Positions 14,223-64,000 of a stretch of DNA of 64,000 nucleotides are shown piece by piece. The notes beneath the pieces are model-generated. The model made no database searches and was not told the origin of the DNA. It saw nothing but the letters and a program-made list of their open reading frames with translations. Each line of letters begins with the position of its first letter. Position 1 is the first letter of the stretch. This DNA is from Lineus longissimus (Eukaryota; Nemertea; Pilidiophora; Heteronemertea; Lineidae), in contig NC_088325.1 of the NCBI RefSeq assembly GCF_910592395.1, forward strand, positions 8,188,109-8,252,108. The letters are read 5' to 3'. A program made the position numbers and the translations under genes.

Positions 14223-17200
14223 TTCTTCTTCTTCTTCTGCGTTCAGATTTTCATAACCATTATAACCTCAAGTCGTGCGCTGCGACAAAATCGGCTGTTT
14301 GTTGCAGGTCTTCAGCTGTTCCCCATAGCTTAGTCTTCAGTGACAATGGCTCCGGGCAAAATTCCTGTCTTCTTTTCATCAAGGGACAGTCCTGCAGAAT
14401 GTGCCTTGGCGTTTGGTTGCCGAGTCCACATTCGCAGGAAGCAGTTGGATGGAGCCCAAGTCTCTTCAGGTGCTGGTGGAGTTTGCAGTGCCCTGTACGG
14501 AGTCGATAGATGGAAACTTGGCCTTTTCGGTCAAGTTGGTGGATGCTGTCTTTCCATGGCTGGTACCCGTCAGTGTCGTCTCTCCATTGGTTTTTCAGCT
14601 TCGTCTTGAGTAATGTTTTTGATTCCCGGTAGGTCATTCTGGTTTTTGTTTGGTACTGCTTGCTACCTTCCTTCGCCAATTGATCTGCTCGTTCATTTCC
14701 TGGTACTCCTACATGAGCTGGTATCCATTGGAGGACTACTCTTCTGTCTTGAAGAAGACTACTTACGTTCTTCAGTAGATTCTCCGTCAGTTGGTCTGGT
14801 GTTGCAGCCATAAGGGCCTGTAATGCGGACAGTCGGTCAGCAGGACGAGATTGTCTCCTACATCTTCTTGGGTGGTGATCAGATAGTCAGTGGCTGAGGT
14901 TAGGGCTTGCATCTCAGCTCTGTAGTTTGAGCAGAGAATGCTGGATGTTACGGATATGGAGTGGGAGCTTCTGTCTTGAAGTTTGATAAAAACACCACTT
15001 CCTCCATTGCTAACTGCATTCTGAGATGAGCCATCTGTATAGACGTTTGTCCAGGTACTATGGGGATACTTTCTGTCTATCATCTCGAGGGTGAGTGCCT
15101 TCTGGCCTTGCGGATCCTTTTTTGCTCGAGGCTTGGAACATGGAGCTCTATCTCTGGAAGATTACGTTCCCTTGACCAGTTGGAAATTGTGAGGTCTTCG
15201 CATAGATCAGGTTCGCTTTCCAGTATGTCCTGGTGTTCCTTTTGCAGGGCCTTTGTGATGGTGTTGATGCTCTTGCGCTTCAGCCTCGTCATCGGTACTT
15301 TTCGGAGCACGTGGTGTAGGGGATGGGTCTTCAACCGATTACTTTTTTCTCCCTGTGTTACTTTTTTCTCCCCGTCTTGTATTCTTTTCTTAACTCTAGG
15401 GGTTGAATGGCAGCTGTTTTCTCCATGTCCCGAATTGGTGTGCTTCGCATTCCTCCAAGGATGATTCTAAAGCCCATATTTTGAACTTTGTCCAGCTTTG
15501 CTTTGGTAGTGTCAGATGCAGTTACCCATGTGGTAGAGGCGTACTCCATGATTGGTCTTACTGCCCCTATATATACTTGTCTGAGGATTTTGGTCAAGGC
15601 TCCCCAAGTCGTTCCTGCCAGCTTTTTCATCAGTGATAATTTCTTGATAGCCTTTTCCTGGATTGCTTGGATGTGTGGGTTCCATGTCAGGCGCTTGTCT
15701 ATGGTTCCTCCTAGGAAGACAGTTGATTCCACTTGGGGTATTGGTTGTGTTCCGATGTGAAGGTTGATTTCTTCCTTCTTCGTTGATAATGAGAAAAGGA
15801 TGCTGGCCATCTTAGCAATGTTGACATCAACGAACGACTTTTTCGCCAGAGTTTCACTTGGTTTACCATGGTCTGAGATCTCTTCATGGCTGTTGATACA
15901 TATCGGCAGGCAGTCCAAGCTGCAAGGTCGTCTGCATGGAGTGTGTTGCCAATGTGTTCTTCAAAGGATTCTGTGATGGTATCGATGTACACCAAAAAGA
16001 GGGTGGGTGAGATACCTCCTCCTTGTGGAACGCCTTCTCTCAAATTCACGAGGTTGCTGGTGGTACCATCAATTTTCACTCTTGCGCTGCGGTTGTGAAG
16101 GAAGTTTTGTAGCCAGTTGTGCATTTCCCCTTGGATTCCTATCTCGAGTAACTTCAGGAGAAGCCCTTCCTTCCAGACCTGGTCAAAAGCCTTCGAAAGA
16201 TCGAAGAAGACAGCAATGACATGTTTCTTCTCCTGGAAGGCATTTTTGATGTCTTGTGCTAGGTAGGCGAGCTGGTCTTCAGTGCTTCTGTGTTGCCTGT
16301 ATCCAGACTGGGTGTGGTTAAGGAGTGATTTGCTCTCTAGATACCAAATAAATCTTTTGTTGACGATTCGCTCCATCAGCTTACCGACACAACTAAGTAG
16401 GCTTATAGGTCTGTAGCTCTTCGGGCTTTTCTTGTCTTTGCCTTTCTTGTGTATAGGAGTGATGTTGGCCGCTTTCCATTTGGTTGGTACTCGACCAGTC
16501 TTCCAGCTGTGATTGAATATCTGGAGGAGTACGTTCTTGGCTCCAGATCCGAGGTTTTTTAGCATCTCATTGGTAATCTCATCAGGGCCTGGGGCTTTCT
16601 TCATCTTTAGTTTTCCTAGGGCTGATTCCAGTTCTTGGAGGGAAATGGATTCAGTCATGCATGCGTCTGGCTTAGATGTTGTTTTCCCTTTGATTTCTTC
16701 CATTTTCTCTCTCACCTCTTTTGTTCTCTCCCTGGTGACTTTGGTTTCACTCTCCTGTTGATAGCTGTGAGCGAGGGCGTTTGCAACTGCTTTACCAGTC
16801 ACAAGGCCTCGCTCAGTTTGTAGAGTGATTTTGGCTCTTTTCCAGCTGTCATCGTTCAGAGTTTTGGTTAGTTGCCAAAGTTTTGTGAGTCTTTCTCCAT
16901 GTTTAGGGAAGCAGTTTTCTCACTCCAGCTAGTGCGCATTTGCTGCAACATTTCCCGGTTGAAAAGTGCTTTAGCTTGGTTATGTTTGGCGACATTTTGG
17001 TCTGATGGGTGATTCTCCATTATCTCCAATACAGCTTGTAGTCCTTACGTCTCCCTCGTGGTATTGAAAGCTTTGCTGCTTCAAGTGTGGCGGAGTTAAA
17101 GACAGCTGCATTTCTGTCAACGTTTCGCTTTGAGAGTATGAGAGACTGTGTTGTCCTGTTGGTCAGTGTTTTGAAGAGAGGCCAGTTGGCCTTCTTGTAG

Positions 17201-33320: not shown

Positions 33321-35244
33321 ATGTGGACACAAGAACTCACAGACATTTTGATCGAGGAGTACAGGGCCCGCCCTGTACTCTACGACACAAAGAATCCCAT
33401 GTACCATAATAGGGTCAAGAAAGAAACTGCCTACCAAGGTATCGTGGACAAACTTTCCCCAAAATGTGAAGGTTGCACAGTTGAAGCAGTTAAAAGGAAG
33501 CTGAATGGACTTCGAAGTCATTTGTCCAGAGAATTCGACAAGATGAAGAAGAAGAACAAAAGTGGAGCAGGGGCCAACGACATGTATCAACCAAAAGTAT
33601 GGTGGTTTCAGAAGATGCTGTTCTTAAAGGACCATCTAGAGCCGAGATGCAGTACATCTACCATGGCCGATGAACATGACGATCAAATGTACAAGGTGAA
33701 TAGACAGTTAATATGTTTATTTTATATCAACACATTCATGTACATTGCACATCGAAGTATTTCTACTGTCAGGCTTAGCTGCAAAATCTGTCCTGCCATG
33801 CTACTCGTCCGATGCCATTCACATAGCCGCGCAGAGCATCTCTTTGTGATTGTGCATCATTGGCATAACGGTTTCCAGACTGATGTTCAATACCTTGGAA
33901 AGCCTCCTCAGCTTTCTTAACTGATCTCCAATCCCCCTTAGCTACAACACCGCGGTTTAATTGTTCCCTATCTACTGCCCTGGGAGGGAAGTACTTGGCC
34001 GAATTATGGACCCTCAGGAAGTTGTGCAGTGCACAAGCAGCCAGAATGATCATCTGCACTTTCTCAGGGGATAGCAGAATAGGAGCAAGAAACACGCGAA
34101 ATCTGTTAGCTAATATCCCAAATGCATTTTCAACCACACGCCTAGCCCGACTCAGGCGGTAGTTGAAAACACGTTTGTCTTTATCAAGATTTCTAAATGG
34201 ATACGGCTTCATGATGTCAGTTTGTAAAGGAAAAGCATCATCTGCTACGAAAAAATAGGGCATGGTGGCATCGCAATCGTGTAAGGGTTTTGCCTCAGGA
34301 AAATGTATAGTCCCATCCGCCATAGCGTTATTGAGATCGCTCTTCCTGAAAACACCTCCATCTCCGACACGACCGTTGGTTCCAGCATCAATCATCAAGA
34401 ACTTGTAGTCGGCATCAACCAATGCAAACAGAACAATACTATGGGTGCCTTTATAGTTGTAGAAATAGGAGCCATAGCGCAATGGTGGGCGGAAAACAAC
34501 GTGTTTTCCGTCCATTGCACCCAAACAGTGGGGAAGGTTCCACTTTGTTTCAAATTCCTCTGCAACCTTGAGCCATTCTTGTTCGTTCGACGGCACCTGA
34601 AAAGATAGACATTTATTTCACGAATGAGTGACCACATGATATCTTTGTTTTTTCAGGATCTGTCTGATGACGACGAAGTATCCGAGGATGAATCGGACAA
34701 AGTGATACATGTAGATACGCAACCATCGACCTCCAAGATCGCTGCTAAGGTGTCTTCATGGAATCCGAAAAGGAAATCATCAAAATCGGTTTCAGCGGAA
34801 GTGTCAATGTTTCAGACGGCCACCAACACTCTGGCGGAATTAAAAGATGCTGCACTCGCATCAAATAGGCCTCCGCCAACAGAAGCGAATGATGTATATG
34901 ATGTGTTTGGGAAGTATGTAGCCTCAGAGATTCGTGCAATCGAATCTCCAGATGTACGACAGAATGTAAAAAGAAAGATCACCTTAGCTTTGCTTGACGG
35001 ACAGGAGGCTGATTTGAACACCAAGAGGAATTATGTTAATGTGAAAAATCGCAGCTATCAGGCACAGCCTCCGTCTGAAACTTTCTTTCCACTGTCTGTT
35101 GAGAATGCAGTTCGACCTTCCTGTCAATTTCGTAATGAAATGGTCACTCCCCGGTTTTCCACAGTTCCACTCGGCCAAAATACAGGTTCAGGTACAAGTG
35201 ATATTGTAAGTCAGGCTATGTATGAAGCATTCTCGAATCATTAG
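33321..35244 (+). CDS. MADF-BESS (Myb/SANT-like) Harbinger accessory protein
   Basis: Harbinger accessory proteins bind the element ends and help bring the transposase into the nucleus. Exon 1 is 33321-33695 and exon 2 is 34657-35244, joined across a GTGAAT donor and a tttttcag acceptor in phase 0, giving 320 residues. Residues 1-90 form the MADF domain (MWTQELTDILIEEYRARPVL, ETAYQGIVDKL, VKRKLNGLRSHLSREF, WWFQKMLFLKDHL). An acidic linker (DLSDDDEVSEDESDK) follows. Residues about 220-255 (VFGKYVASEIRAI, VKRKITLALLDGQ) match a BESS motif. Both exons are open and undamaged. The intron contains the whole second exon of the opposite transposase gene, and exon 2 lies inside that gene's intron. Confidence 0.85.
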
Positions 35245-38900: not shown

Positions 38901-40030
38901 GATCGCTTGGATACATCAACTGCGAAGGCATCTTAAAGCCTTGGATGCTATATTTCCATCAACAAAATTTCAGGTTGCGCAGCGTTATGTAACCTCTATG
39001 ACGCATGTCCAGGTTATGTCCTAAATTTAGTATTTCTGGTTTAAACTAAAAGTATGGACTTTCATGTATCATGTTCACATGTCTAAGATAAGTCAGACTT
39101 TTCTTTTCAACGTGTTTCAAGCCACATCAAAGTGCACGAACGTTCAGTTCTAAGTTCGGAAATAACATAGACAATTTAGAAAGGAGATGTAGTGTAATCC
39201 CTATTGGTCCTTTAAGAGTCACTACAGTACGGTACTGCCACCTTCATGTCAACGGGTTAACAGTGTAATTGCTTCTTTAAACAAACTTGCATTGTTTACA
39301 TCTGTCTTATTCAAGTGAACCGTACCCCTAATCCAGCAAAGGACAATACTTCCACATAATAGTCTGGTAAAACATACATCACATGCTACAATATAAGATG
39401 TTATATGATTGGCTCACTAAGGCAAAGGAGGCGGCGCCTGCAAGAATGTGGCTTGGGAAAAAACATATTTATGGTAAAATAAATTAATCAAAATTAATCA
39501 AAGAATGATCTCTTATAAACATTGGAAGGAAATTTATGGTACAATAAATTATTCAAAATTAATCAAAGAATGATCATTTATTAACATTGGAAGGAAGTGG
39601 GGATAAATTATATTTCAGATTTACTAAGAATAGACAAAACAGTGATACCTTTTGAATCACTGGGATCAAAAGCAACCGAATGGTTCAAATGGAGAGGGTT
39701 AATGAATGTTATTGTAAATAAGATTTGGGGTTATAATTTTAACACTGATAACAATAATGTAAGATCTACGCAGAAACCGTAGAAGTCTAAGAGACAATCA
39801 TGCCCAACGGTATAAATCAGCCTCAAGTGACTGATGCCTACCTGTAATCAGCTACAGGTGACCGATAGCGACATTAGGAGATCAACCGGACTAGTGAAAC
39901 CAGTAGATCGCTTGGATTTATAAACTGCGAAGGCATCTTAAAGCCTTAGACGCTATATTTCCATCAACCAAATTTCAGGTTGCGCAGCGTTATGTAACCT
40001 CTATGACGCATGTCCAGGTGATGTCCTAAA
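35970..40030 (+). repeat. Satellite block 8 (four monomers)
   Basis: LINE-like frames start at 36547, 37533, 38581 and 39597. The 38581 monomer has the same 15-bp deletion and the gtgagacc change found in the 30507 monomer. The block ends at ccaggtgatgtcctaaa. Confidence 0.95.
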
Positions 40031-40837
40031 AGCATTGACACTATCCAGATTAGATGACATTGGTTTTACCAAGTAATTTTTGAACTACTTGGATGAGGTT
40101 TATAATGATAAAGATGGATGTGGATGGTAGAATATAGCCAATAGAACATTATAGGACATTAAAAAAATACATGTTTTCTAATTAGGATGCTTTTATTGGA
40201 GAAACGATAGCAGAAATATAACATGTTGAAATCGTACCAAAAAATGCAAATTGAATTTTAAAAAATAGCTAGGCCTATAGAATACCACCAGTAAAGTTGA
40301 TCTACATAAAAACATCGTCAAAAATCACCCTTTTTCACGTCAAAATAATGAAAACGTAAGAAAATTCATGTAAGAGGAAGGGAGAACACATTGCAGAAGA
40401 GCCTCTATTTTCTGAATGACTATTATGTCCTGACATTTTATATGGTTCTTATGTCATGCTTGATTTACTCCTTAGAAGTGACCCTCCTTTCAATTTCTCA
40501 CTTATTGTCAACCTACACAACACAGTTAAAAATACCATTGACTCATACAAAATCAAGTTTTAGCTGGTTTTTTACCAAGAGTTGTTTTTAATGAATTAGT
40601 CAAACTGCAAGAATGGGGTCTTCAAGGAGCACTCTTTCTTACTTGATAATTGAATGTTTTCTTACCTTTAAAAGCAATATTGATTGTCCAAATGAGAGCA
40701 TTACTTGTTGCTTGTATCCTCAACAATATTGTTACATAACGGCACTAGCAGTTCCAGTCAGGTATCCTTACAGGAATCAAACTAAATACTCCATTGAAGG
40801 CACTTATCCCAATTCCATTCCATTCCATTCCAAGTTT
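40031..40837. other. A+T-rich sequence left of the transposase-USP gene
   Basis: About 800 bp with no gene signature. A ccatt repeat lies at 40808-40832. If the adjacent gene belongs to a transposon, its 3' flank and one terminus should be here, but I found no inverted repeat partner on the other side. Confidence 0.4.
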
Positions 40838-41756
40838 TCATCGAAATAACACAATGTTGATTGTCAGCTGGTCCCCTTGACTGTCCCATGGGGAAGCCAG
40901 CACTGACGGGCGACTGTCATCAAGTTTCCACCACTGGTTAGGTAGCAAATCCAGTGGCCAATATCACAATTGGGGCCTATATGACAGACTACTGCAAGGA
41001 TGGATTGGCCAGGAAAGATGTCTCTTTCGGATGGAAGGATCTTGGTTGTTGTCTTTTCCGTTGTAGCCAAAGTTAGACGCCTGTTCAGCTCGATGATGGT
41101 GACTTGTCCTTGACAACACATTTGAAACCCGCTCCCCTGTTGTCCACAAATTATATTCCTAGCTTTACTCTTGCATCGGAGAGGCTCCAAATCCTGAAAG
41201 TATTTCTCATATAAAGCTAGAAGGGAGACTGCCCCAGAATGAGGTATATTCAGACATAGCGTTTTCAACTTAACCCAACAATCTCCTGATTGCAGTGTCC
41301 CTGAGGGCAGACCATCTCCACTGGCCATGTTGTCACGTATCCTGGAGGCGTGTCGAGTTTAGCAACAAGGGTTGACAGGAATTCGCTTGCATCGTGGAAA
41401 AGAGGCATTGCGTACCCCGCTCCCTGAATAGTACTGTTCACAGCATTTATCAAAGGCATGACTGAAAATGGTCGTCCAGGCATGTTGCGGCACATCCTCA
41501 AGAACACTGTTGTGACTGCATCTTCTGATGGAAGAATGTGCGTATCAAAACTGATTTGCTTTAAACACTGCAAGACAGAAATGCAGTAGCAAGCATTGGC
41601 GTCATTGTCCAGTCCCCTGTATGGACACTGCTGAGAGGAAGTCAGGCGAACAGTTCCTGGTCTCTGTCTTTCTGTGCGTGCTCCTTGCTCATCAGTTCTG
41701 GTTCTGGTTGGTGGTGGTTCAGTTCTGGTAAGTGGTGTTGTACATCTAGTACTGCT

Positions 41757-42105
41757 CTGCTCATCTGGGGACGTCGTTGTAGCACTAGGGAGTTCAGAGT
41801 TCTGACCATCAGGTAAAGTCGTGTGACTGCTCTGCTCATCTGGGGATGTCATTGTAGCACTAGGGAGTTGCGAGTTCTGACCATCAGGTATAGTCGTGTG
41901 ACTGCTCTGCTAATCTGGGGACGTAGTTGTAGCACTAGGGAGTTGAGAGTTCTGACCATAAGGTATAGTCGTGTGACTGCTCTGCTCATCTGGGGACGTC
42001 GTTGTAGCACTAGGGAGTTCAGAGTTCTGACCATAAGGTATAGTCGTGTGACTGCTCTGCTCATCTGGGGACGTCGTTGTAGCACTAGGGGGCGAAGAGT
42101 TCTGA
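41757..42105 (-). repeat. 75-bp coding minisatellite in the USP linker
   Basis: Repeat starts (gttgtagcactaggg) fall at 41776, 41851, 41926, 42001 and 42076, exactly 75 bp apart. Each unit codes 25 residues (PSATTTSPDEQSSHTTIPYG plus five more). One unit has taatctgg in place of tcatctgg, which makes the TAG stop at 41910-41912. Confidence 0.95.
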
Positions 42106-44102
42106 CTGCTCACTGGTGGTCCTTGCTCATCAAGTGTAGTTATAGCCGTCAGAGGGATTGTAGGCCTACTTGCAGTAGTTGTACTTGTAGGACACCTCAG
42201 CCCATCCGGTGACGTGATAGGAATTGGAGGGGGTAGTTGAGAGCCCAATCGTGGCTGCAGTCGTATGGGTAGTTTTGGGTCACATAAATGGCTTCTTCTG
42301 ATGACTGGATGATGATGATCCCTTACGCAACAAAGTAGCAAGAGAAGGGCAAGAACATGAGCATCTGCCCCAAGCATTTGGCTGCCCAAATCTTTTGAGT
42401 CATGTGTGCCACACTTCCAACCGCATAACTTATTCAGAGGTGGTGTAAATCTCAAGTAGTCCACTCCGTTTACTGCAAAGACCAACATAGGCTTTTTGAA
42501 GTTCATCTGATTTTGGTTGCTCCTTGTTGGCAGATGGCATTTTCATCGTGATGACACTCAGACCTGCGCTGGGCCATTGAAAATACTTGACTGGATCCCA
42601 TCCTTCCGGTTCATTTGCTATTGTTGTGCAATACATCCTCGTTGTATCTGGTACCTCACCAATAGCATCCCAGTACTCCTCAATGGTTGTGATGAGATTC
42701 ATCTGATTCTCATCGCTTACTTCCACATTGCGCAAGTGACAGAGGTATGAAAAGGCTCTTATTACTAAATATGGCCCAAGGCACATTTCCTTCATCAACC
42801 CGACATCAATGACTGGAATGTCCAGCAATCTCCATAGATAGCCAACCCTTGAGACTGGGACATGTTGCCAGACCGTACTAGTACTGTTCGAGCGTGGAAA
42901 GTCGTTCAAGTTCACAGTGAAAGTGATATCGAGATCGCACAAAAAGTTTGTCATGTTCAGTCTATGTTTGACAATGCTTGCAAATCTGACTTGGGTCGGA
43001 GTGTCAGCAAACTCCAGTTTGAACTATGGGTGGTACCGATTGTAGATTGTTATACCAGCGAGCCAGATCAGTGTAATCCTGGGATTGTTTTTGCAATCTA
43101 GAGGTATACCATATATTTGGCAAAACTCATCACCCAATGGCTGCATGTACTGGTATGGCACATCACGAAGAATTTTATCTTGGTTGATTGCACCATGAAA
43201 TTGTTCCACCCTGTTTTCCAACAATAGCACTACTGTTTTTCGTCAATAAGGAGCACCCGTTAGAAGTGACCATCACGAACTTGTCATTCTGAACCTGCAC
43301 AATTTCATCATCATCAGAAGAAGGCCAAATAATGAAACAGCCATTTTGCTGGCACCAATTTTTCACATTTTCGATATTTTGTTGACTGGCATTGCAGGGA
43401 ACAAAGATATATCCCTTATCCACAGCCAAGACAACAAAGTAGGCGCTGGATCCACGTAAAAGTGTTCTCATTCCATTTGGAACATGCTCTGCCTCTTCGA
43501 CTCTCATCAGCTCCAACCCACTCAGTTGGCTATCACCACATCTAGGAGTGGCTGCAGCCCCCAGTGGCAGAGTTGCAGCTACGTATCCTGTTGTGTCTAC
43601 CAGCACAGTTGCTGTAAAGCAATGTCCTCCTTTTTTCGGATAGTACGCATCCTTTTGGGCCTCATAGTCCATTGAATTTTGTGTCATGAATTTTTTGGAG
43701 TCCATTGACAGTCCGACAGCCTCCCTGTCCTGACCAGTAGGATCTTTGAAATAGGATAGCAGCTCTTTGTGAAAAGGTGACTCTCCTTCTTTAATGCTTC
43801 TGTAGACCGCATCCATATCTTGAGGTGTTGGGGAAAAGAACACATTTGGAATTTTGCAGTGATGAAAGACATGGTATGTCAGCTGTTTCCAGAATATGCT
43901 GATTGCAGTTGTTTTGGCTATTTGAAAAATAGCTGACAAGTCAATGAAATCCGGATTCCTTCTCATCTTATATCTGTACAACAGTACACGGGCAGAAATA
44001 TCTTATCCCCCTTGTTGAACTACTGTCCCTCTTTGGAGCCAAACTAGTTCCCAGAAATTCCTAACAGATAATCCAGTGGAATTCGTGATTTGTAGTTCGG
44101 AC

Positions 44103-44425
44103 ATTTTCCATGGCTGAATAAAACTGTTACATGACCGGGTGAGGTTTGTAGGCCAGTTATGACACGGATATCTCCTATCATAATCCTTATCTGTGGTGGC
44201 ATAAATATAGTGTTCCTCATCGGTAGGAGGCTGTTGACTATCCGAAGTGGCTGTATTCGTTGCAGCGGTTGTGCCCTGTCTCGGAGCTGGTGGACTGTCA
44301 GAAGAACTATCAGTATCCATTGCAATATCGGTTGCAGCGATTGTGGCCTCCTGTATCGGAGCTGGTGGACTATCCAAAGAACAAGATGTATCCATTGCAT
44401 TATCCGTTGCAGCGGTTCTATCCAA
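44103..44425 (-). repeat. Ser/Pro-rich coding repeat at the transposase N-terminus
   Basis: Two to three diverged units read roughly ATDIAMDTDSSSDSPPAP, seen also as ATDNAMDTSCSLDSPPAP. A further weak copy, KENEIAMEPAA, precedes them in the other frame. Confidence 0.75.
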
Positions 44426-44611
44426 CCAGTTGAATGTCATACAAACTAGCGGTTGCTTCATCCCGTACCGCAGCTGGTTCCATTGCAATTTCATTTTCTT
44501 TCGCATTTGAAACTGATGCCTGAATGAAAGAATATGAGTCTTAGTATCGCTAATGATGACCTTAAAAATACAAAGTCGGACTTCCTTGCGCTTTCTAATT
44601 ATAATGATTAA

Positions 44612-47600
44612 GTGTCAGTCCATGATACCACCATGCAGGATCATGCAAATGGTGGCAAGGTGGGGGGTCAACAGATCTAGTTGTAATTTCTACCACAGAC
44701 CTGTCCTAGGGTACTATGAAGGCTGGTGGATTGGTTTCGAAAATAACCCCACAGTTTTGGGGTACGGCTGTTAACCATTTCCTACTCATTTTCCTTTTAA
44801 AAAAACATGCATTATCCCTCAAAATAGGCTAAGTCTTTTGTCAATTTTCGTGCATCAAACAGAATTATCACTAAACACCGCCTATTGAAATTGAAAGTAC
44901 ATGATCTGAGCTACCTTTTCATGCCTTTTGTTTTGCCCCAGGTACATTTTAATGACAGGTACAGTACGTCCCAAAAACAATGCAATCTCAAATTTCAGTA
45001 AAAAGGCAATTTTTACTCTCCTTTAGCTCCAACACTGCAGTTTTTTAGGTGATGCCACTTCCAGGTAAGGAAGTCAGAATGCTGTTTTTTAATTTGCAAA
45101 AGAAACATATCCGGCCGCCCTTACGGTTTTCCGGTGAGGGGGTCGAGTCGCGCCCTTCTCACTGGTGCCCATTTTTTGCCCATTCCCTCAGATAACTGAC
45201 GAAATACACATGCTTTCCAAATAAAATTACATTTTTTGATGTTAGTGAACCCCCCCACTCCCTTGCCCCTCCCACACACTCCCTCAAACAACCTAGAGGC
45301 CTTTATTACCCCTGTGGAGGCTTAGCGGTCTAGCAAGGACCGAACACCAGCAACGACAACAACAACAACAGTTACAGTTACAATGCATTGTGTACATGCA
45401 CGTGTACATTGTGTGATAGTCTATTAAAAATGGAACCTGAAAATGGAACCTGAAAAATCACAGTTGAAATGTGGATTTGCTGTCATATCCAAGGATATCG
45501 AGTGTGGTACTGACGCTTCATACCCCAATGACAAGAGTGTGATCCCCTTGAAACAATGTAAGAAGGACGTGCACTCCCATTTGATGCGTTGGATGTCCTC
45601 CAGGAAAGCCAGTCAAGTCAAAAGTGAATGGGAGCTCATAGCACTTCGTGCTGGCGTGTTTGATATGAGTTCTCCATCATGACTGGGCAGAATTAGCCCA
45701 GTGAAAGTTGTCAGCTACACATCAAGAATTCTTGATTTAGAATGAAAGGGTACGACTTTATTGGATGTACATTCATCAGGCTTGACCTGAGATTTTCCAC
45801 GCCATTGATTGCAAATGCATTGTTCGCATTCTACAATACATCTCTCTTTTTCTAAAAAAAATACATGGTGAATTTCCTAAAACTGTTACATGCTGTGTTT
45901 TTGTCTCCCTTGACTAACATAACCTGCAATATGAAGGACATCCAGATTTGATGTTCTAGTATATCTAGCGGATGGTTCATCAGGTAAAATGCGGGGCTTG
46001 GTTAAAAAATGATTTTATAGCGATATCTTGGGATAAATTTGAACTTTGGCTTTCAGTAAACATTGTAAATGCCAAGATAGATTTTTAATGTCAGTATACT
46101 TAGTAGCGCTAATGTCAGTTTTGAACAACCAAGCCTGCTACTGGAAAGTGGGACTCTCTCCTGATACTATCCTGCACTTTGGCCTGACATGTAGTACCGT
46201 AAATGAGGTGTTACTAGTATTGGTCCCTCCCTAGTAGTGGTTAGTAGTGGTTTGGCTATTGTCTGCAAAATAGCCTTTTTTCTATGTATCATTATATTAG
46301 CTTGTAAATAAATCACCCATTTGTAAAAAAAAAGTGTCCCTGCTTCTTAGGTGGCAGCACTGTCCTCTGCAGACAGGTACAAGTGTAGCATGTGGAAAGT
46401 TGTGATCTCTCCTAAGGGACTGGACAGTACCGTAACTCAGTTCATGAAAAACTTCTCCATTCCAGTACATGTTTATGTACAATTTAGCCAATGCTAGAGC
46501 AACTCCAGGAGAACATTTCACCGCCAACCAAGGAGCTAAAAACTTCCAATAGCATTACTCTGACGGTACAGCCAACTGCAGGGTTGTCCTCATCAAACAG
46601 TAGTTACAGTAGGAACTGCACCTTTGGTCAATTGGCTCCTTAGCAATGGAAGGTGTTACTAGTATGTGAAATGAGCACTTCTGCAAGGTTCTTAGGAACA
46701 GGATGATCCCTGCATGGGTTGATAAAGATGTATTAGTAGGTCATACCACATGCCCTTCAGGTGCCTTAGCCATGGGGGGGGGGGGTCTTACCCTTACAAC
46801 ATGCTCTGGCAACATGACGCAGGCTAATGAATGGGTCAACATTAGCATCCTCACCAACTGGGGGGTTTCTTTAGGTTTTCGGACTGTAAGAAGGCCTACA
46901 TGTAGCTTATTCAATTACGTTGCCATCAGGTAGGCCAAGGCCGAAATGTTATTTGAAATTCAAATCAGCATTTCAGGACCTATGGGGCCCAATTCCCCAA
47001 AGGGCTTTCATCAAGGGCAAATTTGTAGTGATGAGCTTGTTCTTTTTTGGGGGGAAAAATGCAAGTGGAGTTATTTACCGGTAGGCCAACTTAAAATAGG
47101 TTAGTAGGCCTAGGCATGGGGGGGGGGGGGGGTGATCATGGTGGTTGACAGTAACTACCAATCCTCATGGGCAGCACCAAGCATAAATTATGTGTTCATT
47201 ATGCATTTATTTTATAATTCATCAAGTGTACACAAGGTGGCAGCACTAGCCAATGAGTGTCATTTTGGTGGAAAATAGCACTTTTTCCTTGGTTTATCCT
47301 GGGAAAACAGTAAAAGCGGCCGGAAATTTTATTTCTGATTTTGAAAGTAGGTATCATTACCTTTATCATGTGCAATCCACAGCATTCAAAGACCTGCAGT
47401 GTTGGAGATATGAGCGTCGATAGAGAGCTCTTCCTAAGCACTGCCCCTAGGTATGCATAATTACTAGGCCTAGCACGACCAAAGTATGAAGTGTTACTCA
47501 ACGACCTGTTGCAGAATGGAAGATCTCATCAAATACTTCCATCATACAAAGGGGGGAAATCCAGCTATTTTTTTTAGTCTCTGCAGGAGTGCCCAACATT

Positions 47601-47809
47601 GACCCAAAAATACACAAAAAATAGGGGGAAAAAAGCTAAAACAAGCCCCCTAACTAGGCCTGCCCCTAACTCGGTTGCTAGTGATTTTTGAGAGTCATCA
47701 ATTGCTGTGTAATGATGTGTTAGTGGAAGGATCTTGCATACCTAATCTCGTTAAAAACGGTTGACCCCCACCTTGCCACCCTCTGCATGGTGGTATCATG
47801 GACTGACAC
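44612..47809. mobile_element. 3.2 kb TTAA-flanked element inside the intron
   Basis: Inverted termini begin GTGTCAGTCCATGATACCAC, match perfectly for 27 bp, then continue after a small indel with GGTGGCAAGGTGGGG. Each is flanked by TTAA (44608-44611 and 47810-47813). It sits inside the single intron of the transposase-USP gene; without it that intron would be about 520 bp. No transposase was recognised inside. The open frames 45443-45682 (plus), 46297-46527 and 47199-47501 (minus) have no motif. TTAA duplication occurs in piggyBac and Kolobok elements; the class is not resolved. Confidence 0.85.
45443..45682 (+). CDS. Unrecognised 79-codon ORF
   Basis: The frame runs MEPEKSQLKCGFAVISKDIE to GVFDMSSPS with balanced, protein-like composition (VHSHLMRWMSSRKASQVKSE). 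It starts at an ATG preceded by a near-duplicate ATGGAACCTGAAA. It lies inside the TTAA-flanked element. No family was recognised. It may be a remnant of the element's own gene. Confidence 0.25.
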   Translation: MEPEKSQLKCGFAVISKDIECGTDASYPNDKSVIPLKQCKKDVHSHLMRWMSSRKASQVKSEWELIALRAGVFDMSSPS

Positions 47810-48037
47810 TTAATAGTTTTTGTTCTCTAAACTCTCTAATCTTTTATGGTTATACTTGGGGAAAATGTCAGGTAAAAAGACAATGGTAAAATTGACAACA
47901 GAAGAAATAACAAGTACTAGACAACGGTGAAAAAGTAAATGGAAAAGAGGCAAAAGCAAGACAATCTTTTTAGGCCTACTTTGTAGTAGATGCTGGTCTT
48001 TTTTCCTAATCAGAAAAAAGATAACCCATCTTGGCCT

Positions 48038-48157
48038 AACTGCAGAATAGCCGGGACAGTAGTAGCTCTGTACATTATGTACACTCTGTCCCTCTGTACA
48101 TTATGTACACATTCCTATCATTTAGCACAGAGTGTCCCGGCTATTCTGCAGTTGCTC
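48038..48157. repeat. 19-bp perfect stem with tandem TGTACATTATGTACA loop
   Basis: ctgcagaatagccgggaca and tgtcccggctattctgcag form a perfect 19-bp stem. The roughly 75-base loop holds two direct copies of tctgtacattatgtacac, each itself palindromic. It lies in the intron of the transposase-USP gene, outside the TTAA element and before exon 1. Confidence 0.8.
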
Positions 48158-48732
48158 CCATATCTTTTTAATTTTTTGTTCTTCTGTTGTCTATTCTGCC
48201 GTTGTCTTTTTTACCAAGATTTGTCACAACTTACCACTTGTGCTGCAGATCTAGAGATTGTTACATTACTACTGTTGATGCTGCAGCTAAAGTCGCCAGC
48301 CAATGGAGTTGTCCATGGTGGCGCAAGGTTGTACTCCATTTGCGTGTTCTCATCATATAATACATAATATCCTCGGTAGGAAAATGTCCCATATTCATTT
48401 AGCAGTAGGTCTATTTCTTTGTAAGGGTCCACAATTCCAATATCTTGAAGGGTCCTCTGTGCTGTGGTATTGAGTGTCAATCCCCCAGTGAAAAAGAAAG
48501 GCCAAATGTCTGGTATGGCCAGGTTCCCAGCTTTACACACTATATATCGTTCTATGACAGTATTTGACTGGAGGGCTCCTTTTACATCATCTACGTTGTC
48601 CGGCTTTCGAAGTCTTATCCTTTGACAAAGGTTGTGTGGCCTGAATGGACACCGATGTGTCAGAAGATGCAGGTGTCTTGCAAATCTGTGTAAGCAGTAA
48701 GTGCACTGCAAGTCGGGTCGTATGTCAGCCAT

Positions 48733-49576
48733 GGTGAACACACAGTGCCAAGACACACCGTTCGTCTACCACCATGTCCAAGAGTACAACTGTGTATGAA
48801 GAAGTTCTGTGTATCACAGTGCCCCCGTTTAATACATCATCCAATCTTTGGGGTTTGTGTCATAATAGGCCTATTCCTAGATCATTCAAACTATTACTTT
48901 GGCATTGTGAGTACAATCAAAACCATAACAACAATTTTAAAGAGACAAACCTGAAACATAAATCTATTAGTATTATGTAATAAAACCATTGGGTTCAATG
49001 ATGTTTAAGTGGCAGGTCTTGTTTCTCAAAAAATGACAAGTTTGCTATGTTAAAAGTCACAACAACATTTCGCTACAAACATGTACCACAGCTGTTTCAG
49101 CCAAGCCTAAACATGACATCGAAATAAACCATTCTGCCTACTAGCCTGCTGCCCAACGATTGGTCCATGCGAAAAGCCTGTTAACCGCTACGTAAACATT
49201 GTCGCCAATACACATCTCACACATTATCGCAATACCCATTCAGCCAAAGGGTTAATGCATTGGCATCGTTCAAACATCAGCGCGCTTCTGTACACGTGCT
49301 TGAATTAGATACGACGGTTTTCATTGGCTCATAAGTTGTGTCACATGACCATTCACCCGGCTTGAAAATTTCATGAAATTTGGACCAAAATTAACGAAAC
49401 AGTGGCGATTTTTCGACAAGTTACAGATTTCGGAATTCTTCAAGACTAGATAGCCAGGTAGGCATAATATCATATATCATAAATACCCCGGCTGTTTTGC
49501 ATAACTCATTTCAGTTTCGTACAGAATCATGCGTTTATTCTGAAATTTCTCAAACTTTGATCTGCTCAAATTCAAA
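48733..49576. other. Upstream of the transposase-USP gene
   Basis: No coding signal. This should contain the promoter and the other terminus of the element, if there is one. No inverted repeat partner of 40031-40837 was recognised. Confidence 0.35.
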
Positions 49577-50635: not shown

Positions 50636-51035
50636 ACTCCCCTTGCTTTAGTTAGGAGTACTGCGCATGATTTTCGACTCTGACTGACTCTGGCTTTTGT
50701 TTGATTATTTACTGTAGATTTAGTTTCTAGTCTAATCCTGAACTGTGATTTTAATAAATTGAGCTTACAGTTCCACAATTTGACAACAATATTTGTGTAT
50801 ACTTTTAGTAAGAAGAATTGTTCATGGGTCTGTCACTTTTATTAAAAGAAAGTTAAAGTTGAAACTTCTATAGCAAGGAATATGAAGATGTGAACTTTGT
50901 ATTATTATTTTTTGAATGTATGAGTCTATTGAATGTAAATTAAATGTATATTGTGAATAATTAATAATAATAGTATTGTGTACATTGAAATCATGACTTT
51001 TTCATTTTTGTGTACTGGTACTGCCTTGATATGTT

Positions 51036-51640
51036 GTCCTCTGTGACTGTTGTCTCATCTCTCGGAATAACAAGACCCCAAGCTGGATGAGACACCTACA
51101 TCCCCTGCATATAAAAGATAGGTTGTGACATAATGTCCTCTGTGACTGTTGTCTCATCTCTCTTAATAACAAGGCCTCAAGCGGGATGAGACAACTACAT
51201 CCCTTGCCTATTATAATAAAGGTTGTAACATATAATGTCCTCTGTGACTGTTGTCTCATCTCTCGGAATAACAAGGCCTCAAGCTGGATGAGACAACTAC
51301 ATCCCTTGCCTATGATAATAAAGGTTGTAACATATAATGTCCTCTGTGACTGTTGTCTCATCTCTCGGAATAACAAGGCCTCAAGCGGGATGAGACAACT
51401 ACATCCATTGCCTATGATAATAAAGGTTGTGACATGTCCTTGGTTACTGTTGTCTCAACTTCACTTCCGGAATTACAAGACCCCAAGCTGGATGAGACAC
51501 CCGTTGTCCTGCCTATGATATCATTGGTTGTGACCTGTCGATTTTTGCAACTAACTGTCTCATCTTGGTAGGCCTACAATAGGACACATTTGTCCTGCCT
51601 ATATATACTATAGGTTAAGACCTGTTTTTGCGACTATTTG
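51036..51640. repeat. ~100-bp minisatellite with internal hairpins
   Basis: Units start near 51036, 51135, 51237, 51339, 51436, 51533 and 51620. The central units are most alike. Each holds gttgtctcatc and its exact inverse gatgagacaac about 25 bp apart, so every unit can form an 11-bp stem. Open frames through it are repeat artefacts. Confidence 0.85.
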
Positions 51641-57800: not shown

Positions 57801-58004
57801 GGAGATGTAGTGTAATCCCTATTCCCCAAAGGACAATACTTCCACATAATAGTCTGGTAAAACATACATCACATGCTACAATATAAGATGTTATATGATT
57901 GGCTCACTAAGGGAAAGGAGGCGGCGCTTGCAAGTATGTGGCTCGGGAAAAACATATTTGTGGTACAATAAATTAATCAAAATTAATCAAAGAATGATCT
58001 TTTA
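51898..58004 (+). repeat. Satellite block 9: 1972-bp higher-order repeat
   Basis: Six monomers alternate between type A and type B. Type A has the frame at 52211, 54183 and 56155 with an extra aaattt and tcactcgg. Type B has lost the ggcgcctgcaagaac segment, reads agaatatgatc, and has gggtaaatgg, which breaks the frame, and ttgataactgat. A-to-A spacing is exactly 1972 bp twice. The B phrase aagaatatga recurs at 53171 and 55143, also 1972 apart, then at 57113, two bases short because of a small deletion. The last partial monomer has lost about 155 bp near 57828. The block ends at gatctttta where the Helitron begins. Confidence 0.95.
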
Positions 58005-58734
58005 TCTATACTATTAAAGCAACAGACTGGCACTCACAGCTGGTGACTGCCGGAATCTATGATCCTCAAACCTGTGCCCATATGTAGCTCATGGTCCAGT
58101 GTGCTGTACCTCCCTCTGTCGATCGAAAAAAATTCTGATAAAGATGCTTTTGATGGAGAAATGACCTTCGGCTTTCAGTTTTGGTTCATTCCGAGTACTT
58201 CCGATGTTTGCCGATCGATCAGCAGCGTACAGCCACAATTCTTTTTTTTTTTGGTTCAGGCTGTGTGCGAGACCACTTCCATTCCCGCCGTTTTGCCCCA
58301 TTTCCAGCCTCGGCCACGACCGCTAACGGCGGCAGCAAAGATTTATGTCCGCATACTGTACGAAAGGTCATAATAAAGGTTATAAGGTTATAAACGTAGT
58401 AATTTACTGATTCGTCATCTGACAGGAGAAGTAGACTCGGCGTCTTCGCAATGACAATCGGCGTCTCTGCTTCCGCCCGGCTGCTGCGGAAATGGTCAAC
58501 ACAGATTACAAAAAAAAGTATCGGCAAAAGATTTTCAGCGCGGCCTGTTCACAATTGGCGTGTTGTTTTCACGATTTCCACTGAGATTTTTACAGCGCAG
58601 GTGAATATATATGCTTCAACAACACAGGCACTTTCTGCTTATATTATTGCCAGTTACAAGGAAGCATTTCAAAGCACAAAACAAAGAGCTACAAAGCCGA
58701 TACGGCCTACAACATGTACAAATTTTGTCCGGTA

Positions 58735-58895
58735 ATAAGAAGTACGTCCCCATTTCCGGACATCCATTTCGACCCGGCTCTACTTCTACACCACCAACGG
58801 TGTACACTCCATGTAATTATGCCTTTCCATGTTTCACCAACAGCAACACTCATAATTACGGCAGCTAGGCCCATATTCTCTCTGGAAATTTTTTT
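58735..58895. repeat. Helitron internal repeat, copy 1
   Basis: Carries cgtccccatttccggacatc, cccggctctacttct and ccaacggtgtacactccatg. Two more copies follow at 60345-60505 and 60592-60750. A short piece (cgtccccaaattac) recurs at 63955. Confidence 0.8.
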
Positions 58896-58910
58896 TTTTT
58901 TTGAAACAGG

Positions 58911-60330
58911 CCTACATGCAAGATTCTTGAACACATCATACATAGTACAATAATGGGTCACATGGAGTGCAATAACATCCTACACGACAGCCAGCACGGT
59001 TTCAGGAAGCGTAGATCCTGCGAATCGCAATTGATCATAATAATCCACGAGATCGCGAAGAGGATGACAAAATCAGCCCAAGTGGATATCATCCTTCTGG
59101 ATTTCGCCAAGGCCTTTGATAAAGTCCCGCACCGTCGGCTTCTCAACAAGCATCATAGGTAATACTCTCCTCTGGATCAAGTCTTTCCTCAACAACAGAT
59201 CTCAGTGTGTAGTAGTCGACGGCCAGCAATCAAGCCAAGGAGCAGTTACCTCCGGAGTCCCCCAGGGAACGGTTCTCGGGCCTCTACTCCTCCTCGCCTT
59301 CATCAACGACCTGCCAGACAACATCACATCCTCAGAAGCAAGACTATTCGCAGATGACTGCTTGATGTTCACGCTGATAAAGACCTTGGCTGATGCAGAG
59401 GCATTACAAAAAGACCTGACCGAATTGGAACTATGGGAGCAGAAATGGCAGATGGCCTTTAATCCAACTAAGTGCTCTGTCATCCGCATCCGTACCAACA
59501 AGCGCCAGAAGGTAATTAACTTCCCCTACAAACTACACGGCCACATCCTTGACGAAGAAGAACACAGCAAGTATCTGGGGGTCACGATCAGCAACGACCT
59601 CACCTGGACTACACATGTTAACACAGTGGTAGCCAAGGGTCACCGGACACTAGGCTTTCTAAGAAGGAACTTCTGGAAATGCAACACCCACTTCAAAACA
59701 TCAATGTACACAACACTCCTGAGGCCAACACTTGAATACGCAGCCCCAGTATGGGACCCAAACCTCCAAAAAGACATTGCGGCAGTCGAAAAGATCAGCG
59801 TAGTGCAGCCCGTTTTGTAACTAATACATCGCCAAAGAACACCCGGCACAGTAACTACCATCCTAAAGGACCTAAACTGGAACTCCCTAGAACAAAGAAG
59901 AAAACAAGCATCCTTGATAGCCCTCTTTAGAATTACCAACAACCTAGTAGACATCTCCCCATCATACCTGAATACAGGCGACACAAGAACAAGAGGGACG
60001 AACAAATTTTTCCAAGAGCGATGTGACACCTGCCAAGAGCGCCAATCCTTCTTCCACCGAACCAGCCCTATGTGGAATCGTCTCCCAGAAGACATGAGGA
60101 CGCTGGATAACTTTGAGGCCTTCAAGTCCCAGCTATCCGCCTTTCCGAGACTTTAGAGAATTCAGATGATTGTACATAGTTTTTAAACCGCACCGACTAG
60201 ACGTTTTATTGCTCCGCATGCACACAGCACCATATGATCAATTACGTCCCGAAAGGAACCTGATCATTATAAGGATGAAGATGAAGATGAAGATGAAGAT
60301 GAAGATGAAGATGAAGATGAAGATGAAGAA
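58911..60330 (+). pseudogene. 5'-truncated Jockey/CR1-like LINE, RT part
   Basis: The sequence starts inside the reverse transcriptase: KILEHIIHSTIMGHME, then LHDSQHGFRKRRSCESQL and DIILLDFAKAFDKVPHRRLL. A frameshift near 59157 precedes SFLNNRSQCVVVDG, GVPQGTVLGPLLLLAFINDL and RLFADDCLMF (the FADD catalytic box), then KYLGVTISNDLTWTTH and RPTLEYAAPVWDP. The stop at 59818 is followed by the rest of the C-terminus in other frames, ending FFHRTSPMWNRLPEDM. The 3' end is a (GATGAA)n tail at 60274-60330. It lies between copies 1 and 2 of the Helitron internal repeat, so it probably inserted into the Helitron. It is inactive. Confidence 0.88.
60274..60330. repeat. (GATGAA)n LINE tail
   Basis: Nine to ten consecutive gatgaa units end the LINE at its 3' side. 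Short tandem tails of this kind are usual for LINEs of this group. Confidence 0.9.
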
Positions 60331-60344
60331 ATATTAGAAAGCAG

Positions 60345-60505
60345 CCTACGTCCCAAATTACCGGACATCCATTTCGACCCGGCTCTACTTCGACGCCACC
60401 AACGGTGTACGCTCCATGTAATTACCGTATGACTTTCCATGTTTCGGCAACAACAGCAACAATCGTAATTACGGCAGCCAGGCCAATATTTTGTCTGGGA
60501 AATAG
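60345..60505. repeat. Helitron internal repeat, copy 2
   Basis: Reads cgtcccaaattaccggacat, cccggctctacttcg and ccaacggtgtacgctccatg. It resembles copy 1 with point changes. Confidence 0.8.
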
Positions 60506-60591
60506 GCCTACTACAAAGCCAATACGGCCTACAAAGCCGATACGGCCTACAAATCCTACTACATAACAATTACTTCGTCAGCTAATAGAAC

Positions 60592-60750
60592 GCACGTCCC
60601 CATTATTTCCGGACATCCACTTCCACTCGGCTCTACTTCTACTCCACCAACGGTGTACACTCCATGTCATTATGCCTTTCCATGTTTGAACAACAGCAAC
60701 AATCATAATTACGTCAGCTGCCAACATTCTGTCTGGCAAACAGGCCTCAG
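60592..60750. repeat. Helitron internal repeat, copy 3
   Basis: Reads cgtccccattatttccggac, ctcggctctacttctactcc and ccaacggtgtacactccatg, followed by tcataattacgtcagc. Confidence 0.8.
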
Positions 60751-60762
60751 TTATTAAATGTT

Positions 60763-61795
60763 CACTCATCATCATCCACATGTTCAAATGATGGGGGGGG
60801 GGTCTGTCCTGTCTTAAAAAGAATTGTGAAGACAATCCACGACGATGCACATCTTTCGCATCGTGCACATCACTATTTCACTAACATATCCATATTTATT
60901 TTCCAGCACATACCATCCTACAACTACCTTACTCGACCATACTCATCAACAGAACAGTAAACAGTCAACCAAAATTAGGTAAGCAAAATTTAACACCAGA
61001 CAATGCACTTGCGGTCTCTGAGCCTGCTCTACAGATACTCATAAAATAGTTTCCCTTGCCGGTAGGCCACAACTATGGCAAAAGGTTGCACTCCACACAC
61101 ACTCTTCCTTTACACGGAGCGCATGCAAAAACATTGTAAATGACACCCCCTGAAGTGTTCTTTCACACCATAAATCAATCGCAACTCACCCCAACAAGCC
61201 TAAATTGACACCTGAGGTGAAACTAATTTTCTCCAGCAAATGTACTTCATTTCTTCACTCATCATCATCCCCATGTTCAAATGATGGGGGGGGGTCTGTC
61301 CTGCCCTAAAACGAATTGTGAAGACAATCCACGACGATGCACATCATTCGCATCGTACACATCACTATTTCACTAACATATCCATATTTATTTTCCAGAA
61401 CTTACCATATCCTACAACTACCTCACTCGACCATACTCATCAACAGAACAGTAAACAGTCATCCAAAATTAGGTGAGCAAAATTTAACTCCACACAATGT
61501 ACTTGCTGCGGTCTCTGAGCCTGCTCTACAGATACTCGTACAAAAGTTTCCGTTGCCGGTAGGCCACAACTATGGCAAAAGGTTGCACTCCACACACACT
61601 GTTCCTTTACACGGAGCGCATGCAAAAACATTGTGCCAAAAATAGCCAAAACAAAAATTATTTCAGAGGTAAATGACTCCCCCTGAAGTGTTCTTTCACA
61701 CCATAAATCAATCGCAACTCACCCCAAGTGGCCTAAATTGACACCTGCAGTGAAACTAATTTCCTCTAGCAAATGTACTTCATTTCTACCTGCAA
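60763..61795. repeat. ~494-bp tandem duplication with exon-like modules
   Basis: Two copies begin cactcatcatcatcc (about 60764 and 61256) and both end near cagcaaatgtacttcatttct. Each holds an acceptor (tttattttccag), about 74 bases of A/C-rich sequence and a donor (TTAG/GTAAGC at about 60979, TTAG/GTGAGC at about 61473). A related exon-like piece lies at about 61981-62040 (ttccag ... TTTTAAG/GTGAGC). The downstream parts (ctgagcctgctctacagata) are nearly identical. Copy 2 has the longer open frame (61337-61645), without recognised motifs. Confidence 0.75.
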
Positions 61796-62166
61796 AAACG
61801 ACACGAAGTCTGCCCAAACTAAGGCTGAAAAGAACCACAAATTAGGTTTTGAAATATAGAGGGTGTAGCAAGATCACAGCAATCGAAAGGCCTGCTAGCG
61901 TGCCAAACCTCTGCCTCCAGCATTCCTCTCTGTTCCATACCTTCATACGAACTAAATATTCTTTCCATTCTTTTTCCAGCACACACCATTTTCAAGAACG
62001 TCCAGACCTACAACACATTCCTTTCACAAGCACTTTTAAGGTGAGCACACTATCTAAACTGTTTCACCACATCACCCTTCATAAAACCTTCAACAACTAC
62101 AACCATTAATCGGCCAAAAACATCCCAACCACAATTGAAAACATCATCCCCCCCAAAAAACATCAC

Positions 62167-62294
62167 TCACCCTTTGTAACCATAATCACGTACATTACTC
62201 ACCCTTTGTAACCATCATCATGTACATTACTCACCCTTTGTAACCATAATCATGTACATTACTCACCCTCTGTAACCATAATCATGTCAGATTT
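62167..62294. repeat. 32-bp minisatellite, four units
   Basis: Units start tcaccctttgtaaccat at 62167, 62199, 62231 and 62263, exactly 32 bp apart, and contain catgtacattac. Confidence 0.9.
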
Positions 62295-62352
62295 GTTCAA
62301 TTATTGCATCTCACAATTCTCACACTTTACCTTCCAGATGACTGCACCATAA

Positions 62353-63015
62353 ATCCCTCCGCACACAATTGCGGCAAACTTAGAAGACGACGTCAAAGCC
62401 CTCAAAACCCAATTACAGAAAGACCTCGCCCTCTTGCAGGTAAACCTCTTAGAAGGCGATATTGTCAATGCCAAGAACGATATCCCACAGATACGAAAAG
62501 ACACCAACAAAAAAGTCAAAAGGTTGTACTCCACACTTGGCAAAGTCCAAGTTTGCAAGAGGGAATTGATCTTCCAAGACAAAGCCAGGCAAAAGGCACT
62601 GCAGAGAAGAGAATCCTCAAGCCCCTCCTGCAAAACCCCTCTCCGCTACCTCTCGCCACCACCAATGTCACCTGCAAAATATTCACCACAACAACCATCC
62701 CCTTATAAGCAAGCACCAATGACACCATCGCCAACTTCGTTCAGGCCTGTCACACGCCATCTAAACGCTCCTCGCCCCAAAATACCAAAACTCAGCTTAG
62801 AACTCTTCCAAGACGACGACATGGACGACGCCACCCTATCCGAAGCCACTGAGCCTGAAGGACCGGCAAACAAAGTTGCCACCCCTACCCTAACCAAAGC
62901 CACTGACCCTGAAGTACCACCAAACAAAGTTGCCGCTGACGCAAAGAGGCCACCACTACCACAGTTGCCACCACCACCACTTCCAGTCACAACAAAGAAA
63001 CCACTCAACCTATAG
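62353..63015 (+). CDS. Coiled-coil and proline-rich ORF, possible captured exon
   Basis: The frame is open from just after a TAA (62350-62352) to a TAG at 63013-63015. The first 80 residues are helical and charged (NLEDDVKALKTQLQKDLALL, VNAKNDIPQIRKDTNKKVKR), a probable coiled coil. Then comes a Pro/Ser region (YLSPPPMSPAKYSPQQPSP), two repeats around EATEPEGPANKVATPT and KATDPEVPPNKVAA, and PPLPQLPPPPLPVTTKKP. AATAAA follows near 63043. There is no early ATG. Acceptor-like sites exist at 62338 (accttccag) and 62439 (ctcttgcag), so the frame may be a last exon that begins at one of these. No family was recognised. Its place inside a Helitron suggests capture, which is inference. Confidence 0.5.
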   Translation: MPPHTIAANLEDDVKALKTQLQKDLALLQVNLLEGDIVNAKNDIPQIRKDTNKKVKRLYSTLGKVQVCKRELIFQDKARQKALQRRESSSPSCKTPLRYLSPPPMSPAKYSPQQPSPYKQAPMTPSPTSFRPVTRHLNAPRPKIPKLSLELFQDDDMDDATLSEATEPEGPANKVATPTLTKATDPEVPPNKVAADAKRPPLPQLPPPPLPVTTKKPLNL

Positions 63016-63327
63016 TGACAGAGGAACCACCCAAGAAAATGCAATAAACATGACGTCACACTTGAACTTTAACTCAAGTCACACTCCTCAACTCATACTG
63101 CTGAATTCCCAAACTCTACATTATTTCATACTGCTGACTTACGGCAATAGGCAGCATCAGCTGACATGCTCAAGACTTATGCTGCTTATTCTGCTGACAT
63201 CCAAAGTTACTGCTGAATTCTCAAACCACACCATTATGTACAATCAAAGTTAAATAAATTTTATTTTCCAGAAATAAAGTCTTCTTTCCTTCACTCGCGC
63301 ACATCACATCAGGCACAAGCACCAACC

Positions 63328-63835
63328 ATGCCATTGCCTGCTGGCCAAAAAAGGAAAAGCATCGAAACCCAAAGAAGATTAAAACGTCAAAGAGCTACAC
63401 AAGCCAATCGAACTCAACACCTCGCTCTTGGTAACATTGATGACTATAATGTCCAATGTGGCCGCCATCTACCTACACCCCATGACCTCGGCACAATGTC
63501 CAACAAGTGCACAATGTCCAACAAGTGCTCTCATGTGGAAAAACGAAACCCATTCTGGCAAATTAGGGCAAAACGCAAAGTTTTCTCTCTGCTGCAATCA
63601 AGGTCAAATTTCCCTTCCACAAATCAATGACCCACCAAATTAACTCCAAGCACTTCTCACCTCTAACACTAATGAAGCAAAACAATTTCGTACAAATATA
63701 CGTGCTTACAACTCCAGTCTTGCATTTACATCGCCCGGTGTACATGAGGAAAAACTCCCAAACAGAGGACCATACACTTTCCGTATTCAAGGCAACATGT
63801 ACCATCGCATCGGCCATCTTCTACCAGAAGACTGA
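63328..63835 (+). pseudogene. Helitron Rep/helicase protein, N-terminal region
   Basis: This is the start of the rolling-circle replication protein of Helitrons. MPLPAGQKRKSIETQRRLKR begins at 63328. A one-frame jump near 63530, beside an 18-bp duplication (acaatgtccaacaagtgc twice), leads to LMWKNETHSGKL and FSLCCNQGQISLPQINDPPN. A TAA at 63641-63643 is followed in the same frame by LQALLTSNTNEAKQFRTNIR, AYNSSLAFTSPGV and GPYTFRIQGNMYHRIGHLLP, with a TGA at 63833. FRxNIRxYNxxLAFTS and GPYTFRIQGxxYHRIG are hallmarks of the Helitron-like N-terminal domain. The HUH nuclease and helicase would follow outside or further right. This copy is broken by one shift and two stops. Confidence 0.85.
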
Positions 63836-64000
63836 GAAGAATAAAATATGCTTATGGATCATCATGGCCTTATAAGTTCCACTACATGTAGTATCCTGCA
63901 GAGTGTGCCATGTGCTCACAGTTGTAGCTGACGACAAATTAGTTTAAAAATCCGCGTCCCCAAATTACTAATATAGGGAGCCAAACATATACATATGCAC
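63836..64000. other. Helitron interior at the window edge
   Basis: No clear coding continuation after the Rep fragment. ccgcgtccccaaattac at about 63952-63968 repeats part of the internal repeat seen at 60345. The element continues beyond the window. Confidence 0.4.

Follow-up and report, generated by a model that had tools for sequence, protein, structure and literature searches.

A probable Spy-type DNA transposon of Lineus longissimus with a predicted ubiquitin-specific protease fused to its transposase

A decayed transposon in the Lineus longissimus genome

We analysed 64,000 nucleotides of the Lineus longissimus genome (contig NC_088325.1, positions 8,188,109 to 8,252,108; hereafter the window), which contain the remains of a DNA transposon whose DDE transposase is followed by a ubiquitin-specific protease (USP, peptidase C19) domain. 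Because intact, near-identical relatives elsewhere in the genome carry both parts in one reading frame, transposase and USP are almost certainly one fused protein of a mobile element. The window copy belongs to a family that we call W and shows the following features:

40031..49086, minus strand: decayed DDE-USP transposon of family W, recognised by DNA matches to loci L083 and L084; right end at 40031/40030
48235..48732, minus strand: predicted exon 1, encoding a C2H2-like finger; ATG at 48732, splice site placed by eye
48033..48160, no strand: intronic 128-bp insertion with inverted ends, missing from L083
44607..47814, no strand: separate intronic insertion of 3.2 kb, bounded by matching inverted ends of about 60 bp and by TTAA on both sides, from comparison with L083
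40844..44519, minus strand: predicted exon 2 with acidic N-terminal part, helix-turn-helix (HTH), DDE core, post-DDE region, linker and USP; acceptor placed by eye
43175..44002, minus strand: HTH and first two DDE blocks (SMDSKKF, AVDKGYIF) in a stretch open from 44002 to 43175; all sequences of alignment A1 share the Asp, Asp and Glu
43026..43221, minus strand: third DDE block, ENRVEQFHG (near 43215-43190), in a shifted frame, aligned with intact relatives
41751..42106, minus strand: linker, a 75-bp tandem repeat in 4.7 copies of 25 residues each
40844..41639, minus strand: USP domain with two frameshifts; Cys box at 41615, His box, WWKLDD at 40933
40031..40404, minus strand: right terminal inverted repeat, which matches the left end of L083 in inverted orientation (91.6% over 381 columns)
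40028..40030, minus strand: TTT half of the AAATTT target, where the flanking satellite begins; intact in 19 other satellite units of the window

An initial annotation of the locus had named a series of transposase and protease motifs (SMDSKKF, AVDKGYIF, ENRVEQFHG, a Cys box, GHWICYL and WWKLDDSRP). All were found in the minus-strand translation, with the Cys box, GLDNDANACYCISVLQCL, beginning at 41615 and GHWICYL and WWKLDDSRP (40933) toward the 3' end, and the repeat linker that it described is the 75-bp tandem repeat listed above. Its single exon of about 3.7 kb holds for the presence of the motifs but not for an open frame: read along the minus-strand translation, exon 2 is interrupted by three in-frame stops and changes frame four times. 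The copy in the window is dead. Its left (5') end is missing past 49086 and two younger insertions lie inside it, the larger one between exon 1 and the DDE exon; the TTAA duplication of this larger insertion is inexact, because the empty site in L083 reads CTATAAAATC. Exon 1 is akin to the exon-1 open reading frame (ORF) of another family, B (L041:3661-4377), for which the Pfam zf-C2H2 match is weak (E=0.042).

The copy is embedded in a satellite of about 1 kb, many units of which extend over window positions 5235-57641 (approximate limits), and is inserted in the AAATTT of one unit. A 102-bp tandem repeat in about 4.6 copies (51035-51499) lies between the lost 5' end of the element and the satellite.

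Relatives with transposase and protease in one frame

A search of the genome (391 Mb, 30 contigs) with the DDE piece of the window listed 56 matches. Their identity to this piece was 79-95% in family W (longer matches), 55% in family A, 59% in family B, 58-59% in family C and 53-60% in single copies. Five W loci are pairwise 95.14-97.38% identical and have longest frames of 275-503 codons, against pairwise identities of 99.76-99.97% in A (9 loci), 99.66-99.97% in B (10 loci) and 99.45-99.69% in C (3 loci). Judged by these identities, W is old and A, B and C are young, and the near-identical copies of the latter show recent multiplication.

Setting fragments and W copies aside, 26 copies were read through the end of the USP (10 of A, 10 of B, 3 of C and 3 single). 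We asked for a longest frame that contains the three DDE motifs together with the Cys, His and Asp/Asn motifs of the USP, and found it in 16 of them (A 7, B 6, C 2 and the single copy L081). The remaining 10 of the 26 lack such a frame, which counts against the explanation preferred below. Four of these are shortened or frame-shifted (L031, L036, L014, L023), the frame of L078 stops ahead of the His box, L079 and L080 are broken, and L034, L019 and L022 have a single motif off its pattern; in some copies (L080, L019, L034) USP boxes are missing or altered. Where the initial annotation had left the choice between fusion and adjacency, the 16 copies decide for fusion. It had also allowed for intact relatives with two separate genes, for a host USP gene lacking the transposase and for a translation devoid of a UCH match; none of these applies to the 16 copies, since one uninterrupted frame and a UCH match exist. 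The search for intact copies that it proposed yielded continuous ORFs and, as described below, termini and AAA/TTT junctions without duplication.

A protein search returned two proteins, P0001 and P0002. The former has no USP end, and the latter is 45% identical to the L040 protein (family A) over 90% of L040. A scan of IMG/VR gave no match.

Termini, target site and probable assignment to Spy

Family A elements measure about 7.82 kb and end in terminal inverted repeats of about 21 bp, GGGCMTGTTCACTTTCGTTTT. AAA precedes all nine left ends seen and TTT follows eight of the nine right ends; in L031 and L036 one end each was not found, and among the eight copies with both ends seven have both flanks correct. 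In family B, the 8.59-kb copy L042 has identical terminal repeats of 356 bp starting with GGGG, flanked by AAA and TTT, and includes a 1.17-kb stretch without counterpart in L041. An apparent left boundary at L042:3377 was rejected, as it is the edge of this stretch. In L041 the right end was not found, and the other B ends lie outside the stretches read. The terminal repeat of family W starts with GGGC; the left end of L083 is preceded by ACTAAA, and the right ends of the window copy and L084 are followed by TTTAGGACAT. The uninterrupted site, ACTAAATTTAGGACAT, is present in 19 satellite units of the window and represents the empty AAATTT site, known for family W only; of two further matches, one is the occupied junction and the other a variant unit. 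The target is AAATTT, split mid-site into AAA and TTT without duplication. The left and right W junctions were taken from separate copies, and the family may have spread together with its satellite array; the case for mobility rests on A and B. The terminus of family A, sought in the window, gave no match.

Spy transposons insert between AAA and TTT and leave the target unduplicated; they measure 1165-5910 bp, with terminal repeats of 5-691 bp and a transposase of about 700 residues composed of DNA-binding and DDE domains (PMC4482050, PMC11304231); one member, cgSpy, is reported to be functional in human cells (PMC11304231). The present elements share with these accounts the insertion between AAA and TTT without duplication (A, L042 of B, and W), terminal inverted repeats (A, B and W) that begin with GG and differ in length between A (about 21 bp) and B (356 bp), and an HTH plus DDE transposase, recognised by motif. 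Its DDE residues (Asp276, Asp373 and Glu449 in L040 numbering) are invariant in six of six aligned proteins. Unlike the Spy elements so described, they reach 7.82-8.59 kb, have frames of 1078-1129 codons and carry an added USP.

Several observations weigh against the assignment. The right end of L040 is followed by AAG rather than TTT, L041 has AA rather than AAA on its left, and the W junctions are composite, as noted above. The reported size of Spy and its transposase length are exceeded, although these belong to its description and not to its definition. On the DDE side the Pfam evidence is weak: HTH_Tnp_4 (best E=5.9e-4) and DDE_Tnp_4 (best E=0.01) each match four of the six aligned proteins, with all bit scores given falling short of the curated cut-off. 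The Pfam check proposed by the initial annotation succeeded for UCH, as detailed below, and gave weak matches for DDE_Tnp_4. A profile comparison of the first-Asp block with a Harbinger-like transposase of the window (33775-34617, minus strand, a 280-codon frame with DDE_Tnp_4 at 1e-28) gave E=0.0024 but a probability of 12%. Taking termini, target and this weak DDE similarity together, the element is very probably a cut-and-paste transposon of the Spy type within the PHIS superfamily.

Two other groups were considered. According to PMC4482050, ISL2EU elements create an AT duplication and mostly encode THAP and YqaJ proteins, and Harbinger elements create a TWA duplication and mostly encode a Myb/SANT protein. 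Both resemble the present elements in a related DDE superfamily and AT-rich targets, to which the first-Asp block adds its weak similarity to the Harbinger-like protein of the window. However, the junctions of A, B (L042) and W have neither the AT duplication of ISL2EU nor the TWA duplication of PIF/Harbinger, and both were rejected. The Pfam table of the intact relatives contains no THAP, YqaJ or Myb match, and a YqaJ-like ORF candidate in L040 lies outside the element by its coordinates.

The protease domain

The Cys-box piece of the window alone stays below the Pfam UCH cut-off of 23.9 bits (E=4.9e-4, 20.2 bits), whereas the window USP read across its frame changes exceeds it (E=1.8e-8, 34.7 bits), as do intact relatives (E=3.5e-10 and 7.5e-9; 40.4 and 36.0 bits). 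The catalytic Cys, His and Asp/Asn boxes align across A, B, C, L081 and P0002; the third catalytic residue of USPs can be either Asp or Asn. Structure prediction shows a USP fold for the modelled domain, with closest matches tied among many USPs. The VIA-align and Foldseek lists brought up no family of interest other than USPs. A dN/dS of 0.17 indicates purifying selection, and the linker (23-31% identity) is far more variable than the adjoining USP. Less favourable are the poor full-length AlphaFold model (pLDDT 35) and the faster divergence of the USP, which is 38-54% identical between the four families against 51-68% for the DDE core. On balance, we consider the domain a likely active deubiquitinase.

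Proteases of the ubiquitin and SUMO systems on transposon proteins are known. They comprise Ulp1 or OTU proteases on Ginger1, Ulp1 on Mutator and OTU on Helitrons (PMC2836005). The likeness lies in a transposon protein that carries a cysteine protease of the ubiquitin or SUMO system, at the C-terminus in Ginger1 transposases as here; the differences lie in the transposase superfamilies and in Ulp1 or OTU there versus USP here (PMC2836005). The initial annotation had been unaware of any DDE transposon described with a USP domain. This did not hold, as the same paper names Trichomonas vaginalis XP_001314237.1, with Transposase_11 and Peptidase C19. Like the present protein, it joins a DDE-type transposase domain to a C19 (USP-class) domain; unlike it, by the description given there, it is a single protist protein of the Transposase_11 type. 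A small set of literature searches turned up no Spy-type element that carries a USP.

Origin of the fusion

In a tree of USPs (12 rows, 268 columns), those of the Spy-type elements, including P0002, split from the other USPs of the genome with a support of 0.988; other deep branches are poorly supported. The other USPs were L002, L003 and L008 (taken as putative host genes), a Helitron USP and a USP-Ulp1 sequence. The simplest reading is that the USP was captured once, before the families diverged, as the tree suggests.

The Helitron copies L090 (C9:3977500-3986999) and L091 (C4:2608000-2617499) lie on different chromosomes and are 99.67-99.89% identical in their main pieces. Their protein opens with a full-length USP (UCH 2.3e-19; Helitron_like_N 3.3e-28), and a replication-protein-A-like ORF adjoins the gene. 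Three loci on C3 (L004, L005 and L006) have a 616-codon frame with a USP (2.8e-25) followed by Ulp1 (C48, 1.4e-18), which is broken in L007 (C20). Upstream of the frame lies an ORF without Pfam match, which we take to resemble the end of a transposase. Compared with the Spy-type USPs of A, B and P0002, those of the Helitron and the USP-Ulp1 sequence show 21-25% identity. There is about an even chance that the Spy-type clade depends on its built-in deubiquitinase and that at least three unrelated multicopy kinds (Spy-type DDE, Helitron, USP-Ulp1) took up USPs separately. If true, host ubiquitination would be a general barrier to, or a co-factor of, eukaryotic DNA transposition.

Possible role of the protease

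In the explanation that we prefer, one transposase gene would encode a zinc-finger exon 1 (families B and W), HTH, DDE core, variable linker and C-terminal USP. The DDE part would excise the element and insert it between AAA and TTT. The tethered USP would deubiquitinate proteins near the transposase-DNA complex, the transposase itself first, which would thereby escape the proteasome; perhaps histones or proteins of DNA repair at the cut ends would be substrates as well. We assign a probability of roughly 0.6 to this overall explanation, a Spy-type transposon with a cis-acting USP. The arrangement suggests that the element may edit host ubiquitin signals during its movement; the initial annotation had supposed that the protease could shield the transposase from degradation or oppose ubiquitin signalling of the host. 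Action in cis that aids transposition is about as likely as not. Among the possible roles, self-protection with local action, to which we give about half the weight, is favoured over a chromatin-directed role and a role in trans.

The USP might instead serve mainly in chromatin or the DNA damage response, deubiquitinating histones or repair factors at donor or target and so steering gap repair or opening the target. This is possible but rather doubtful: we found no sequence feature of a histone-specific USP, and the fold matches, tied among many USPs, single out none. It is unlikely, too, that the USP, in the manner of a secreted or diffusing antagonist, counters ubiquitin-based silencing or defence of the host in trans, far from the transposase-DNA complex. 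The presence of USPs on unrelated elements of the same genome would fit such a role, but the frame shared with the transposase in 16 of the 26 copies favours a local one, unless the protein is processed. Capture of host exons by transposons is common, and the USP could be a captured fragment that travels as a passenger without function, in keeping with its greater variability compared to the DDE core and the loss of the Cys box in L080. The motif conservation (Cys, His and Asp/Asn) noted above for A, B, C, L081 and P0002, the dN/dS value and the far more variable linker next to the USP render this very improbable. Hardly credible is a transposon lying beside a separate host USP gene: the window copy is itself broken between both parts, and among the matches listed 88 of 94 UCH matches are not just downstream of a DDE match (six are, on the same strand, by reading; 149 of 184 candidates were scored, so some copies are absent from the list), but continuous frames rule it out for A, B, C and L081, and the USPs of all families and P0002 form a single clade.

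In these families, near-identical copies with the protease in the transposase frame make it testable why unrelated transposons keep gaining proteases of the ubiquitin and SUMO systems. One catalytic change could reveal whether the protease aids transposition, and the substrate that it protects would tell in which way hosts employ ubiquitin to oppose or to assist transposons.

Other features of the window

An Rfam scan of the window gave no matches. An 810-codon frame at 10607-13039 encodes an apparently intact piggyBac-type transposase (DDE_Tnp_1_7, 1e-76). Reverse-transcriptase fragments (RVT_1) lie at 15711-16919 on the minus strand (3.8e-30) and at 59068-59820 on the plus strand (1.6e-13). 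The last 6 kb (58001-64000) are strongly skewed, with a GC skew down to -0.37 and an AT skew up to 0.22.

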